This document shows, piece by piece, positions 8,901 to 41,481 of a stretch of 42,939 nucleotides of DNA; position 1 is the first letter of the stretch, and every line of letters begins with the position of its first letter. The translations under genes and the position numbers were made by a program. The notes below the pieces were generated by a model. It saw nothing but the letters and a program-made list of their open reading frames with translations. It was not told the origin of the DNA and did not search any database. Source of the stretch: Spirochaetae bacterium HGW-Spirochaetae-2 (GTDB lineage Bacteria; Spirochaetota; Spirochaetia; Sphaerochaetales; Sphaerochaetaceae); the NCBI GenBank assembly GCA_002839355.1, contig PGXW01000022.1, positions 1 through 42,939 on the forward strand. The letters are read 5' to 3'.

Positions 8901-10169
8901 TCAGGAAAAGAGCAAGGTATGGTCGGGTGGAATGCTCTTGTAGGCACTCGGCTTGTCCAACAATTCGGCAAGTTGTGGAGGAACGGGCACCGTTTCACCG
9001 ATGACCGGTTCGACAACCGTATCGAACTTCGCGGGATGGGCTGTCGCATACACGACCGTCGGTTCCGGCAGATCCAGGGACGTGCGTACGAACTCGCCGG
9101 TTGCGGTATGGGGACATACGATATAGGAATGCTTCTCCCACACATGCCTGATCGTATCGGTTATAGTCGCATCGTCCACGCTGAAAGCGGAGACTTCCGC
9201 ACTGAACTGTTCGAAATCGCCGAACAGATGTGTCAAGCGCTCCATATTGCTCGGATCGCCGACATCCATGGCATTCGCCAAGGTCGCCCGGCTCGAGCGC
9301 TTCTCGTATGTTCCCGACTCGAGATAGTCGAGGATTGTCCGGTTGGCGTTCAGGGCCAATACGATCCGGGAAATGGGAGCTCCCATGACCTTGGCCCAAT
9401 AGGAGCCACAGCTGTTGCCCACATTGCCGCTGGGAATGACCATCACCGGTTCATTGCCGGTCCGGGCCAACACTTCCAGCGAAGCGTGGAAGGCATACAC
9501 CATCTGGGGCAACAATCGGCCGAGGTTGATACTGTTGGCCGAGGATAGCCCGTGCTCGGCGACCAGTGCCGGGTCCATGAAGGCCTGCTTCACCATCCGC
9601 TGGCAATCGTCGAATACCCCGTCCACTGCATAGGCATCGACATTGTCGGCCCAGCAGGTCAACTGTTGTTGCTGACGCTTGGAAACCTTACCCTCGGGGA
9701 AGAGGACCTTCACATCGATTCCGGGACGCTTGTGGAACGCGGCGGCAACCGCTCCACCCGTATCGCCACTGGTGGCGACCAGAATGGTCAACTTGCGATT
9801 CCTGTGTTTCAGCAGTCTTTCCATGGATGCGGCGAGGAACCGGGCGCCGAAATCCTTGAAGGCGGCAGTTGGTCCCCAATACAACTCCAGGACCGAATCC
9901 TTCCCGTCATGCCAATGCAACGGTACGGGAAAATCGAAAGCCTCGACACAAATTTCGGCCAATTCCGACTCCAGCTCGTCGTCGACAAAGAAGGGAGCCA
10001 ACACCTCATAGGCCAATTCGGGATACGAGGTGACCGACGCAAGCTTCTCGAGTGCGATATGTGGGAAGTATTCGGGGACATACAACCCTCCATCGGGTGC
10101 AAGTCCCTGCAGGATAGCCTCGGATGCACTGATTGCGGGTGATTTCCCGCGGGTACTTACAAATAGCAT
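8901..10169 (-). CDS. thrC: Threonine synthase
   Basis: A PLP enzyme that converts O-phosphohomoserine to L-threonine. The 422 residues include the N-terminal SASEAILQGLAPDGGLYVPE segment, the PLP lysine in AAFKDFGARF, ATSGDTGGA, and the phosphate-binding PSGNVGN loop. The length matches the E. coli-type (short) enzyme. I chose the ATG at 10169 because TAGGAGG lies six bases before it and the family begins there; in-frame codons upstream run into thrA. It follows the ThrA-like gene by 10 bases, so the two form a threonine operon. No thrB (homoserine kinase) is in the window. Confidence 0.93.
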   Translation of the reverse strand: MLFVSTRGKSPAISASEAILQGLAPDGGLYVPEYFPHIALEKLASVTSYPELAYEVLAPFFVDDELESELAEICVEAFDFPVPLHWHDGKDSVLELYWGPTAAFKDFGARFLAASMERLLKHRNRKLTILVATSGDTGGAVAAAFHKRPGIDVKVLFPEGKVSKRQQQQLTCWADNVDAYAVDGVFDDCQRMVKQAFMDPALVAEHGLSSANSINLGRLLPQMVYAFHASLEVLARTGNEPVMVIPSGNVGNSCGSYWAKVMGAPISRIVLALNANRTILDYLESGTYEKRSSRATLANAMDVGDPSNMERLTHLFGDFEQFSAEVSAFSVDDATITDTIRHVWEKHSYIVCPHTATGEFVRTSLDLPEPTVVYATAHPAKFDTVVEPVIGETVPVPPQLAELLDKPSAYKSIPPDHTLLFS

Positions 10170-10179
10170 GTCCAGCCTC

Positions 10180-12582
10180 CTACAGCCGTGCGCCCAGATA
10201 GGAACTGAGGCGCAACAGGTCGGCGAACACACCGCCAGCGGTCACCTCGGGACCGGCCCCCGGTCCTTGGATCACCAACGGCTGCACATGGTAGCGGTCG
10301 GTGGTGAAAGCGACCACATTGTCGGTTCCCTTGGATTGTGCGAACGGGTGGCTCTCCGGATAGGCGGCCAACTCCACATCGCAACTTCCATCCTTGGCTA
10401 CCCTACCGACATACCGCAACCGTTTGCCCGTCGCCTCGGCATCGCGATAGAGCTTCAGGATATGGTCGTCCATCAGTTCCATCTTCTCCATGAACTGTGC
10501 AAGCGGCACGTCCTGCAACGCCTCGGGCACCAGGGAGGTGACGGCAATATCTGACACTTCGACCTGATACCCCATCTCACGGGCAAGGATTACGGTCTTG
10601 CGGGCCACATCCATACCGGAAAGGTCGTCGCGTGGATCGGGTTCGGTGTATCCCATGTCCTTCGCTCCCCGAACCAGGGTGCTGAAGGGTACGGTCCCGT
10701 CATAATTGGCGAACAGGTATGCCAAGGTGCCTGAGACGATTCCCTCGACACTGCGCACCCTGTCGCCGGTCTGGATCAGGTCCTTCAAGGTGCCGATCAC
10801 CGGCAATCCGGCTCCAACGGTGGTTTCATAGAGGAAATGCTTGCCGAATTGGCGTCCCGCGTCCATGAGCTTGCGGTATTCGGGATACGCTGCGGTCCCG
10901 GCCTTCTTGTTCGGGGTCACGATATGGATGCCACGCTCGATCCAACCGACATAGTGGGTCGGTAGCGATGCGCTGGTGGTGCAGTCGATCAATACGGCAT
11001 GGGGGAAATAGGATGCGCTGACATGTTTCACCATGGCCTTCACATCGAGTTTCTCCGCTTTCTCGGCAAACAGCTGCCGCCACCTGGTCACGTCGATCCC
11101 CTGTTCGTCCAGCAACATCTTGCTCGAATTCGCAATGGCACGGATTCGGATATCGACCCCGAACTCACCATTGAGACGATGCATTTCCGCCGCGATCTGG
11201 TCCAGAAGGGTTCCGCCGATATTTCCCGGTCCGAACAGACCTACGCTGAGGGCCTGGTTGGAGAGGAAGAACCCGGCATGCAATGCCCTGAGCGCTTTTC
11301 GCGCATCCTCTTCCTTGATGACCGCACTGATATTCCGTTCGGAGGAGCCCTGGGCTATGGCACGCACGTTCACATGCGCCTTGCCCAATGCTCCGAAAAA
11401 GGTACCGGCTATTCCGGGAACACCCGGCATCCTCTCTCCGACCGCGGCAAGGATCGCACAACCCATCTCCACTTCGATACTGTGGATGCGGTGGGCTCCG
11501 ATCTCCGGGTTGAAGGTGCTCCTTGCGATCGCACAGGCCAATGCCGCCTGTTCCGAGGGAACGGCGAAACAGATCGAATATTCGCTGGAAGCCTGGGATA
11601 TGAGGACGACGGATATGTCGGATTCATGCATTGCGGCGAACAGCCGCTGGGCAATACCGGGAACACCGATCATGCCGGCTCCCTCCACATTTATGAGGGC
11701 GATTTCCCTGATGACCGAGAATCCTTTCACCGGTCGGCTCGATTCCATACCCTTTTCATCGTCGATGGTTGTACCGATATGGTCGGGGTGCGCGAACGAC
11801 CGCAAAATCAGCGGAATCCGTTGCGCCATGGCCGGAACCATGTGCTGGGGGTGGATGACAGGAGAGCCGAAGAACGAGAGTTCGGTGGCTTCGGCATAGG
11901 TAAGGCAGTCGATCACAGCTGCGCTGGGGACATCGTCGATATCTGCGGTGGTGACCAGGTGGTCCAAATTCCAGAAGGTGATGGACGATGCCTTGAGCAT
12001 GCTGCCGACCAACGCGGCGGCGAATTCGGCATCCCGGTCGCGCGGTGCGGCTTCGCTTTGCACCAGTTCGCCGGTAAGGAGAATCGTCTCCTGTGCACCG
12101 ATCTCGATTGCGGGATTGTCCAGGACTTCCCGGATATTGAGGATCCGACAGGAGTGTCCGTGACTTCTGAACGCTTCGCGCAGCAATGCGGCGGCCCATC
12201 CCCCCACGATAGCATCCACATACCTGCCGGAACCAGGGGAAATGTCTCCGACAAGCCAGATGGCACGCAGGATATCCTCAACCGCACCGAACCCCTGCTT
12301 GATCTCGTCTTGCACTTCGGGACGATAGGTGACCGGAATCAACGTTTCGACCAGTGAATTCCAAGCATTTGTCCGACTTTCCATCATACCCCACAGACGC
12401 TCGTCGTGGTCCTTGGCGGCCCCTAGCAGGTGGGACAGTTCGAGTTCACCGTCACATACGGGGGCAATGACCAGAACCATCGCTTGCCCATGGGCTTCCT
12501 TGCGGATCGCCAACAACTTGTCGGTTCCCTTGGGAGCCACAATCATCGAGCCTTCGATGGCATGTACCTGAATTCCGTTCAC
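10180..12582 (-). CDS. thrA: ThrA-type aspartokinase/homoserine dehydrogenase fusion with degenerate kinase domain
   Basis: An 800-residue protein with the E. coli ThrA layout: kinase-fold region (about 1-285), two ACT domains (about 288-435) and homoserine dehydrogenase (about 445-800). The dehydrogenase half is intact: the Rossmann motif GLFGPGNIGG, TPNKKA, and the catalytic block DPRDDLSGMDVARK ending at K662. The kinase half has lost the KFGGTS motif (here VHAIEG), the GEKMS-like loop, the GRNGSDYSA loop (here PRDRDAEFAAA, 180-190) and TDVDG (here WNLDHL, 204-209), while the ELSFFGSPVIHP segment remains. It is therefore probably only a homoserine dehydrogenase, perhaps with threonine control through the ACT domains. 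The start is GTG, seven bases after GGGAGG; no upstream start would restore the missing motif. Confidence 0.85.
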   Translation of the reverse strand: MNGIQVHAIEGSMIVAPKGTDKLLAIRKEAHGQAMVLVIAPVCDGELELSHLLGAAKDHDERLWGMMESRTNAWNSLVETLIPVTYRPEVQDEIKQGFGAVEDILRAIWLVGDISPGSGRYVDAIVGGWAAALLREAFRSHGHSCRILNIREVLDNPAIEIGAQETILLTGELVQSEAAPRDRDAEFAAALVGSMLKASSITFWNLDHLVTTADIDDVPSAAVIDCLTYAEATELSFFGSPVIHPQHMVPAMAQRIPLILRSFAHPDHIGTTIDDEKGMESSRPVKGFSVIREIALINVEGAGMIGVPGIAQRLFAAMHESDISVVLISQASSEYSICFAVPSEQAALACAIARSTFNPEIGAHRIHSIEVEMGCAILAAVGERMPGVPGIAGTFFGALGKAHVNVRAIAQGSSERNISAVIKEEDARKALRALHAGFFLSNQALSVGLFGPGNIGGTLLDQIAAEMHRLNGEFGVDIRIRAIANSSKMLLDEQGIDVTRWRQLFAEKAEKLDVKAMVKHVSASYFPHAVLIDCTTSASLPTHYVGWIERGIHIVTPNKKAGTAAYPEYRKLMDAGRQFGKHFLYETTVGAGLPVIGTLKDLIQTGDRVRSVEGIVSGTLAYLFANYDGTVPFSTLVRGAKDMGYTEPDPRDDLSGMDVARKTVILAREMGYQVEVSDIAVTSLVPEALQDVPLAQFMEKMELMDDHILKLYRDAEATGKRLRYVGRVAKDGSCDVELAAYPESHPFAQSKGTDNVVAFTTDRYHVQPLVIQGPGAGPEVTAGGVFADLLRLSSYLGARL

Positions 12583-12617
12583 GTTTCATCCTCCCGTCCA
12601 CCTGTTGTGGCTCTTAG

Positions 12618-13672: not shown

Positions 13673-13701
13673 TTGACACAAGCCACTATTGACCCCATAG
13701 T
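13673..13701 (+). promoter_or_regulatory. Promoter of the decarboxylase-MFS pair
   Basis: TTGACA (13673-13678), 17 bases, CATAGT (13696-13701). The predicted start at about 13708 coincides with an in-frame ATG at 13709. Confidence 0.55.
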
Positions 13702-13726
13702 CAGCCCTATGGAAAGAACTGAAATA

Positions 13727-14866
13727 ATGACCGATGAACGGCTGCAGCGTGTACTGGATTTCTCCCGCACAAGGGAGACACCTTTTCAATTGATCCTCTC
13801 CGATATTATCGAGGAAAAGTTCGCCGAATTACAGGAGGCGTTACCGTTTACGAAGATTTACTATGCGGTAAAGGCAAATCCGGCCGTCGACGTGCTGCGG
13901 TTGCTCGACCGCTTGGGATCCAACTTCGATGTAGCCTCGATCTACGAGCTCAGACGCCTGCAGGATTTGGGCATTTCAGCCAGTCGCATGAGTTGCGGCA
14001 ATACCATAAAGAAATACGAACATATCAAGGAATTCCACGCGGCGGGCATAGACCTGTTTGTCACCGACAGCGAGGGGGATCTCCGCAATATCGCCAAAGC
14101 GGCTCCCGGATCCAGGGTGATGGTCCGACTCATGGCCGAAGGTGCCCAAACCGCCGATTGGCCGCTGTCGCGGAAGTTCGGGTGCAGTCCCGACTTAGCC
14201 GGGGACCTGCTCATACTTGCCCGGAAACTCGGACTGGTGCCCTGGGGGCTTTCGTTCCATGTCGGTTCCCAGCAACGCGATATCACCGCCTGGGACAGTG
14301 CCCTGTCCAAGGTCAATTACCTGTTCACCTGGTTGAAGGAAAATGAGGAACTGGAACTCAAATGCATAAATATGGGTGGCGGATTCCCGGCAACCTATCG
14401 CGAGAAGACCAACACGGTCCAAACCTATGCCGAGGAGATAAAACGGTACCTTTACGAGGACTATGGTGACGACCTTCCCGAGATCTTCATCGAACCGGGC
14501 CGTTCCCTTGTGGGAGATTCCGGTGTCCTGGTCAGCGAGATTGTCCTGATATCGCGAAAATCGCGTACTGCCCTGGAACGTTGGGTGTATCAGGATTGCG
14601 GACGGTTCGGCGGTCTCATGGAGACTTTGGGCGAAGCGATCCACTACCCTATATTTTGTGAACGCAGCGGTCCGACCGAACAGGTAGTACTAGCCGGTCC
14701 GACATGCGACTCGATGGACACCTTGTACGAGGATTACCGCTATGACCTGCCGTTGAGCCTCGCGGTAGGCGACCGGCTCTACTGGCTCTCCACGGGGGCA
14801 TATACCAGCAGCTACTCCGCCATTGAATTCAATGGCTTCCCTCCGCTAGAAACCTACGTGCTATGA
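13727..14866 (+). CDS. Ornithine decarboxylase-like PLP enzyme (alanine racemase fold, group IV)
   Basis: A 379-residue PLP decarboxylase. The N-terminal barrel has the PLP lysine K49 in YYAVKANP, then SFHVGSQ, MGGGFPA and EPGRSLVG. The C-terminal domain has GPTCDSMD, matching the catalytic cysteine motif of eukaryotic-type ornithine decarboxylases, and the closing YTSSYSAIEFNGF. It would remove CO2 from ornithine (putrescine synthesis), though lysine or another basic amino acid is possible. The ATG at 13727 has a weak GGAAAG upstream. An in-frame ATG at 13709 sits at the predicted transcription start and would give a leaderless message, so the start is uncertain. The stop overlaps the next gene by four bases. 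Confidence 0.82.
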   Translation: MTDERLQRVLDFSRTRETPFQLILSDIIEEKFAELQEALPFTKIYYAVKANPAVDVLRLLDRLGSNFDVASIYELRRLQDLGISASRMSCGNTIKKYEHIKEFHAAGIDLFVTDSEGDLRNIAKAAPGSRVMVRLMAEGAQTADWPLSRKFGCSPDLAGDLLILARKLGLVPWGLSFHVGSQQRDITAWDSALSKVNYLFTWLKENEELELKCINMGGGFPATYREKTNTVQTYAEEIKRYLYEDYGDDLPEIFIEPGRSLVGDSGVLVSEIVLISRKSRTALERWVYQDCGRFGGLMETLGEAIHYPIFCERSGPTEQVVLAGPTCDSMDTLYEDYRYDLPLSLAVGDRLYWLSTGAYTSSYSAIEFNGFPPLETYVL

Positions 14867-16202: not shown

Positions 16203-16274
16203 TGATACTGTCGATGGGATAGCACAGGGCATCCCATTTCGTTGCAGTCACTTCAGGATAGGAGGATGCGAACC

Positions 16275-17462
16275 ATGAAGAGAATCGTATTGGCTGTGTG
16301 TCTTATTGTAGCCGGAATCGGATTGATATCGGCGGCGGCTTCAACCGGATTGTACACGTTGGTGATTCCGGAGCAGTACAGCACCATGGAGGTCCAAGGT
16401 GGTGTTGGAGGAGTTCCTGGCTCGGACGTCATTCGTCTCGAATTGGACACTACTCCATCCGACGCCCGATTCAGAATCGGTGCGGACGCCGATTACCAAT
16501 GGTATCGCAGGACCGAGGATACCACGATGAATATCGATGCGGGCGGGACATTGTCGTTTGGAAACAATCTGCTTAGCTTCGACTTCGACGTGGATCCTTC
16601 CTACAAGAGCTATACGTTGGACCTAGGCTCGATGAATGGGTTTTTCACTGTAGGCGCTTCGTTCGGCTTGTGGGGGTTCGTTCCTTTCTCTGGGACTTCG
16701 GAAATCGAGTTGGATGTGTTTCCATATGGAGAGGCTGGTGTTGGAAGACTCTATAGCATCTACACCCTCAAGCGGATCGAAACCATCATGAAGTATCTCG
16801 GAGTGACACCGACCGAAGAGAATGTCCGTCAGGTCGCGCAGATCATGTACCAGCAAAACCAGCGGCTCCTGGAATTCAACGACGATTTCAGTCGGAACTA
16901 CCTCAAATACTTCACCGATATCGCCACTGCGATGGGAGTTCCGGAGAAAGTCCTCGATCTGGCAGTCCTGGGGTATTCCCAGCGCTATGTGTTCGAAATG
17001 GCACGGTATATTGGACTTCAACACGGTTGGGAAGCGGGTATCCGACTTACTCCGGGTGTCTCGTACGATAAGGGGTTCACTACCACCACGACCGATTTCC
17101 GCGGAGCGTTTGAGCTGTTTGGCGAATATGGCGGGTTCCTGATCGAGGACATGCTTCACCTAGGTGCGGAGGCCGGTGTGAGACTTGCATACGAGACCGA
17201 CCATACCGACAAGTTCTATGCGGAGATAAGGACTTCGGGAACCGTACGGTACCTTCCAGACAACTACCGTCTCTGGGCAGAAGGTGTCTTGGACATACGC
17301 TATTCCACTTCATCCACATGGGCCGATCCATTCGACTTGGATATACGGGCGCAATTGAACTACATGATCAATCCGAACTTCACCACCTACGGTGGGGTGT
17401 CCCTGTTGAACACATTCAAAAATCTTGCCGTCTATGCAGGGGGAAGCATCCGGATTTGGTAA
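16275..17462 (+). CDS. Secreted, probable outer membrane beta-barrel protein
   Basis: A 395-residue protein beginning with a signal peptide (KRIVLAVCLIVAGIGLISAAAS). The mature part is rich in alternating hydrophobic and aromatic strands, glycine and tyrosine (for example AELRTS-like strands and NYRLWAEGVLDIRYS) and ends in IRIW. A C-terminal aromatic is the usual signal for insertion by the BAM machinery. A helical stretch (about residues 160-245) interrupts the strands. I do not recognise a named family. The ATG at 16275 lies nine bases after AGGAGG; an ATG directly abutting that site at 16266 is less likely. It ends directly against the convergent EAL gene. Confidence 0.7.
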   Translation: MKRIVLAVCLIVAGIGLISAAASTGLYTLVIPEQYSTMEVQGGVGGVPGSDVIRLELDTTPSDARFRIGADADYQWYRRTEDTTMNIDAGGTLSFGNNLLSFDFDVDPSYKSYTLDLGSMNGFFTVGASFGLWGFVPFSGTSEIELDVFPYGEAGVGRLYSIYTLKRIETIMKYLGVTPTEENVRQVAQIMYQQNQRLLEFNDDFSRNYLKYFTDIATAMGVPEKVLDLAVLGYSQRYVFEMARYIGLQHGWEAGIRLTPGVSYDKGFTTTTTDFRGAFELFGEYGGFLIEDMLHLGAEAGVRLAYETDHTDKFYAEIRTSGTVRYLPDNYRLWAEGVLDIRYSTSSTWADPFDLDIRAQLNYMINPNFTTYGGVSLLNTFKNLAVYAGGSIRIW

Positions 17463-41263: not shown

Positions 41264-41337
41264 TATGCATACAGGTAAAACCAAACCAAACAGCAGAGGA
41301 CAGAAAATCCTGTCGTACCGTCGATTGCCATCACCTC

Positions 41338-41462
41338 GTTCTTCTTCCATCCAGACTGTAACTGTCGGCTTCGGATTTTGACCGAATCTGCTCTTTCGAG
41401 CTCGCGGGCTTGCGAACGTGTCGCCTACCGCCGGTAAGGTATTTCACCTAACCCTGAAGAAC
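41338..41462 (-). promoter_or_regulatory. FMN riboswitch (RFN element)
   Basis: On the minus strand the RFN core is complete: P1 arms GTTCTTC and GAAGAAC, then AGGGTTAGGTGAAATACC, CCGGCGGTAGGCG, CAAGCCCGCGAGC and the tail GAAGCCGACAGTTACAGTCTGGATG. FMN binding should favour the terminator at 41231-41263. It controls ribD-ribE-ribBA-ribH. Confidence 0.97.
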
Positions 41463-41481
41463 ATGTAATTAATGTTGATTC

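Follow-up and report, generated by a model that had tools for sequence, protein, structure and literature searches.

Threonine is bound in the Arabidopsis aspartokinase-homoserine dehydrogenase (AK-HSDH) by Gln443 and Gln524. E. coli ThrA shares with the protein described here its domain order, an ACT pair with both of these glutamines and the homoserine dehydrogenase (HSDH) active site, and the two differ in the kinase active site, which our protein has lost. The best solved structural match to its residues 4-440 is the threonine-sensitive aspartokinase of M. jannaschii (3c1n, 3c1m), which, unlike our protein, is an active kinase without an HSDH fusion. The Clostridium acetobutylicum-type aspartokinase (3tvi) represents the class of the separate kinase encoded in the same genome, not that of the fusion.

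A regulatory pseudo-amino-acid-kinase domain is known in N-acetylglutamate synthase (NAGS, ArgA type), where a non-catalytic domain of the amino-acid-kinase fold gives the quaternary frame and conveys arginine feedback to the fused acetyltransferase (PMC4490483). The fusion described here may resemble NAGS in having a kinase-fold domain without a catalytic job as a proposed frame and feedback carrier. However, NAGS is another enzyme of another pathway, arginine binds its kinase-fold domain whereas the known threonine sites of our fusion lie in the ACT domains, and the fused partner here is ACT-HSDH in place of an acetyltransferase, so that the likeness is by analogy only. For aspartokinase, no description of an inactive domain was found in the open-licence literature, although subscription papers may mention one. 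A 2007 analysis of ask-hom fusions deals with proteobacteria, and neither "inactive" nor "degenerate" occurs in it (PMC1885841); in a review of pseudoenzymes, neither aspartokinase nor any amino acid kinase is mentioned (PMC10211241).

The thrA-like gene and its product

The window, by which we mean the whole 42,939-nucleotide stretch of Spirochaetae bacterium HGW-Spirochaetae-2 DNA that was analysed, carries the following features.

10180..12582, minus strand: thrA-like gene for an 800-residue fusion of putative pseudo-aspartokinase, ACT, ACT and HSDH domains (open reading frame and domain profiles)
11743..12582, minus strand: putative pseudo-aspartokinase domain, residues 1-280 (predicted model, structural matches, alignment)
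11260..11742, minus strand: ACT domain pair, residues 281-441 (Pfam, structural matches, alignment)
10183..11259, minus strand: HSDH domain, residues 442-800 (Pfam; NKKAG and EPDPRDDLSGMDVARK kept)
12583..12595, minus strand: GGGAGG ribosome-binding site (12590-12595) and in-frame TGA (12586-12588) (sequence reading)
8901..10169, minus strand: threonine synthase gene thrC, its ATG 10 nt past the thrA-like stop, forming a thrA-thrC gene pair

The first-pass annotation of this DNA had described the dehydrogenase and both ACT domains as well kept, and this was borne out. Pfam recognised a full HSDH domain (PF00742, 172 bits; PF03447, 63 bits) and, strongly, two ACT domains, and the active-site segments NKKAG and EPDPRDDLSGMDVARK supply the catalytic NKK and DPRDDLSGxDVARK segments expected of the ThrA class. 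The ACT pair is central and, as read from the alignment, retains two glutamines, Gln330 and Gln411, which we take, from their plant AK-HSDH counterparts, to belong to the threonine sites. The match to the kinase profile PF00696 reached 36 bits only and was confined to profile positions 84-233, its rear half, while the NCBIfam ThrA model PRK09436 scored 807 bits (cut-off 726) with its best stretch starting at residue 185.

The gene is read from a GTG start through 800 residues without an internal stop. The GGGAGG site sits 7 nt before this GTG, the in-frame TGA lies two codons upstream of it, and this start is shared by the closest homologues; an upstream start therefore cannot restore KFGGTS. 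A hidden upstream start or frameshift was thus ruled out, as was a sequencing or assembly error, since homologues share the kinase loss. The earlier view that the fusion is not a frameshift artefact accordingly stands, and neither a corrected start nor a sequencing error, two of the outcomes named as able to refute the dead-looking kinase, restores the motif. No threonine leader or riboswitch was found by Rfam upstream of the gene.

Loss of the kinase active site

Alignment of the protein to E. coli ThrA, and to E. coli LysC for residue numbering, located the replaced kinase segments as follows.

12544..12564, minus strand: HAIEGSM at residues 7-13, replacing the ATP-binding (H)KFGG(T/S)S; the Lys8 equivalent is Ala
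12016..12042, minus strand: RDRDAEFAA at residues 181-189, where ThrA has GRNGSDYSA; Arg198 to Asp, Asp202 to Glu
11956..11973, minus strand: WNLDHL at residues 204-209, where ThrA has WTDVDG; Thr221 to Asn, Asp222 lost
11848..11883, minus strand: ELSFFGSPVIHP, residues 234-245; the Lys257 equivalent is Pro241

The KFGGTS of E. coli ThrA thus aligns with AIEGSM and RGEKMS with IVGGWA, and changes were seen at 13 of the 14 active-site positions tabulated against LysC. All four signatures that the first-pass annotation had listed as gone (KFGGTS, the GEKMS loop, GRNGSDYSA and TDVDG) are indeed replaced. Its further statement that the flanking segments align well held for the ACT part and failed for ELSFFGSPVIHP, where GAKVLHP has become GSPVIHP; because the catalytic lysine of this segment is now a proline, the loss extends into it.

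The same positions were compared between 49 full-length degenerate and 27 intact homologues. Among the degenerate proteins, Lys8 is replaced by Ala in 40 and kept in one, and Glu119 is mostly Ser, Gly or Thr. An acidic residue, Glu or Asp, stands in for Arg198 in 41 of them, Glu for Asp202 in 48, Asn for Thr221 in 45 and Pro for Lys257 in 36, and Asp222 is lost. From the E. coli LysC structures we take Lys8 and Lys257 to be the ATP lysines and Glu119 and Arg198 to be the residues of aspartate binding, Arg198 presumably holding the substrate carboxylate. The window protein therefore does not have the aspartokinase catalytic residues (Lys8, Glu119, Arg198, Asp202, Thr221/Asp222 and Lys257), and so the fusion is not a bifunctional enzyme, though it is descended from one. 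Judged by these residues, its N-terminal aspartokinase domain is most likely a pseudokinase within a ThrA-derived monofunctional HSDH. Since all 26 aligned members strongly match the NCBI model of the bifunctional enzyme, annotation is likely to label such genes, wrongly, as aspartokinases and so to mislead metabolic modelling of this group.

Distribution and single origin of the loss

In 61 genomes around that of the window, full-length homologues were found in six families of the class, that of the window organism and five more, and all those read were degenerate except L034 (genome G040). About 50 homologues from these six families have the matching kinase loss. Further degenerate members came from a sample of 393 genomes across the phylum, which also contained a second, more distant spirochaete fusion group (Treponema-type), whose motifs were intact in those read, except L191. 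The named-species collection of 84,980 genomes was sampled through its best 80 matches. The degenerate forms among these were all labelled spirochaetes, examples being Spirochaetae bacterium HGW-Spirochaetae-4 (97%) and Sphaerochaeta sp. M55B162, and the remaining matches were mainly gammaproteobacteria with the motifs kept apart from small variations. Every non-spirochaete ThrA read among the 80 keeps GSD, and KFGG is likewise kept in all save one incomplete row; in L065, a long N-terminal extension precedes an intact KFGG.

Mapping the loss on a tree, as had been proposed, placed it on one branch. Trees were built from the ACT and HSDH parts only, leaving the kinase trait out of the data. 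In a quick tree, one branch (support 99) separated all 53 degenerate rows, a count that takes in the window protein and two duplicate pairs, from the rest, and in a careful tree of 68 rows the 42 degenerate rows formed one clade with support 100/100. With the loss shared by 53 rows, sequencing error and chance are excluded. The motifs are present in every outgroup, E. coli ThrA included, which makes the change a loss. As the degenerate sequences form one clade on these trees, the kinase disappeared a single time, in the common ancestor, while the domain itself persisted; the loss is ancient, and repeated independent losses are not needed. L028 and L030 branch first within the clade and have kept more kinase-like letters (SADP, WTSVDG, KFDD), whereas shorter members occur in reduced genomes, namely L195 (G016; 653 residues) and L035 (G015) and L036 (G031; both about 705 residues). 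Here a metabolic kinase has turned into a pseudokinase once only, and intact relatives, less-eroded forms and trimmed forms all exist, so that the steps from a bifunctional to a regulated single enzyme are testable.

A separate aspartokinase and the pathway genes

The first-pass annotation had also expected a separate aspartokinase elsewhere in the genome, and one was found on contig C78 (L003/L119), with intact motifs and of the C. acetobutylicum-type class (3tvi; PRK09034 class). It is presumed to be the working kinase, and a gene of the semialdehyde-dehydrogenase family lies about 10 kb from it. The genome has only one PF00742 gene, that is, one homoserine dehydrogenase. Each of the 27 relatives that have the dead fusion also carries a separate aspartokinase, its motifs intact in all 26 read, and the dead fusion was thus never alone. 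G040, the sole relative with an intact fusion of the window type, has no other aspartokinase. The idea that a separate aspartokinase is exclusive to the dead form was nevertheless refuted, as additional aspartokinases accompany most of the intact spirochaete fusions too; a separate kinase therefore permits the loss and is not a sufficient explanation of it. A search for canonical thrB gave nothing above the family cut-off in the window genome, nor in 25 of the 26 genomes searched, and no TIGR02535 homoserine kinase exceeded its cut-off in the window genome, although thrC is present.

Predicted fold and proposed role of the dead domain

An AlphaFold model was computed from a 26-row alignment as a single chain, and is silent on quaternary structure. 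Its mean pLDDT was 89.7 and stayed at about 90 across residues 1-280. VIA-align matched residues 4-440 to the threonine-bound M. jannaschii aspartokinase (3c1n, Z 34.4; 3c1m, Z 33.0), residues 442-796 to yeast homoserine dehydrogenase (Z 41.7) and residues 1-283 alone to UMP kinases (Z about 16). From the matches to 3c1n and the UMP kinases, the amino-acid-kinase fold of the ThrA class is predicted to be kept at the N terminus, which agrees with the earlier suggestion of a kept kinase fold without its catalytic residues.

The domain is also under purifying selection. Five pairs with unsaturated dS gave dN/dS values of 0.067, 0.118, 0.053, 0.082 and 0.078 in the dead domain, and the degenerate N domain measures 282 +/- 8 residues without internal stops, about 25 residues shorter than that of intact fusions. 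Motif loss, a predicted fold and purifying selection taken together would make it a pseudoenzyme.

We consider it rather likely, from sequence conservation and the model, that the pseudokinase domain of this ThrA-derived HSDH packs on the ACT pair, aids the oligomer and relays threonine inhibition. The ACT pair, lying between the dead domain and the dehydrogenase, would need the former as a platform, which would be why the domain remains. Threonine bound at the two ACT glutamine sites would signal via the dead domain to the dehydrogenase. Control would in this way be split, threonine acting on its own branch only while the separate aspartokinase sets entry to the pathway. As Gln330 and Gln411 are both invariant in the 49 full-length degenerate homologues, threonine feedback on the window-type dehydrogenase is probably intact. 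Regulation by the dead domain, which the first-pass annotation had suggested, is what we infer from these glutamines, from purifying selection and from precedent. An old question, that of the non-catalytic contribution of the ThrA kinase domain to threonine inhibition of the dehydrogenase, is thereby made testable.

At an HSDH identity of 55-60%, the N part is 24% identical among dead fusions against 42% among intact kinases, and the ACT pair is equally conserved in both at equal HSDH identity, so that constraint on the dead domain is relaxed, not absent. Such relaxation would also suit a structural remnant, which the ACT pair and HSDH dimer need in order to fold or assemble and which erodes slowly without a feedback role. 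The more kinase-like early branches L028 and L030 and the trimmed L035, L036 and L195 are in keeping with this, the trimmed forms hinting that the dead domain is not indispensable. We regard it as unlikely, however, given the dN/dS range of 0.05-0.12, the near-constant length, the two invariant threonine-site glutamines and a set of clade-specific residues, several of which fall in the following element.

12250..12402, minus strand: two-helix hairpin, residues 61-111, with clade-specific near-invariant E61, W64, E68, E102 and W109 (model and alignment)

H7, E61, W64, E68, E102, W109 and E186 are near-invariant in the degenerate clade only, each in 48 of 49 members; in the AlphaFold model, E61-E68 fall on one long helix and E102-W109 on the next. 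That the retired pocket and this conserved Trp/Glu hairpin make up a new ligand or partner site, serving as a second HSDH sensor or as a subunit of the separate aspartokinase, seems rather unlikely. A new function in general, with either the old active site or the hairpin patch binding another ligand or a partner such as the separate aspartokinase, draws on these new residues and on the conservation of the replacements themselves (Asp202 to Glu, Thr221 to Asn, Arg198 to an acidic residue, Lys257 to Pro). There is also precedent in trypanosomes, where catalytically dead paralogues that activate their partners are documented (PMC5201418). The separate aspartokinase gene is, however, on another contig, and such a sensor or subunit role appears distinctly unlikely. 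Although the equivalents of G11 and S39 often persist and some pseudoenzymes prove active, phosphorylation of aspartate by a rearranged active site is extremely improbable, as Lys8, Lys257, Arg198, Glu119 and Thr221/Asp222 are all replaced, the charge at Arg198 is reversed and a separate aspartokinase is always present. A pseudokinase domain that relays threonine inhibition thus remains our preferred reading.

Other observations

In L035 and L036 the second threonine-site segment, AIAQGSSERNI, is altered, and these proteins and L195 suggest that in small genomes decay has gone further or regulation has changed. L191 (G407:C23:13500-16600), of the other spirochaete fusion group, is partly eroded, with KFGGSV and WSARDG yet GRGGSD kept, and may represent the beginning of a separate loss of the kinase; its genome has other aspartokinase genes. 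The otherwise intact ThrA fusions L078 and L080 (Wenzhouxiangella) have WTNVDG for WTDVDG.

Elsewhere in the window, the sole Rfam match is an ordinary FMN riboswitch (41335-41465, minus strand, 112 bits), and a 406-residue open reading frame at 16242-17462 (plus strand) has no Pfam or NCBIfam match. A LysA-like decarboxylase is encoded at 13673-14866 (plus strand) and followed by an MFS transporter at 14863; it scored 166 bits against a lysA cut-off of 298, and possibly acts on another substrate.
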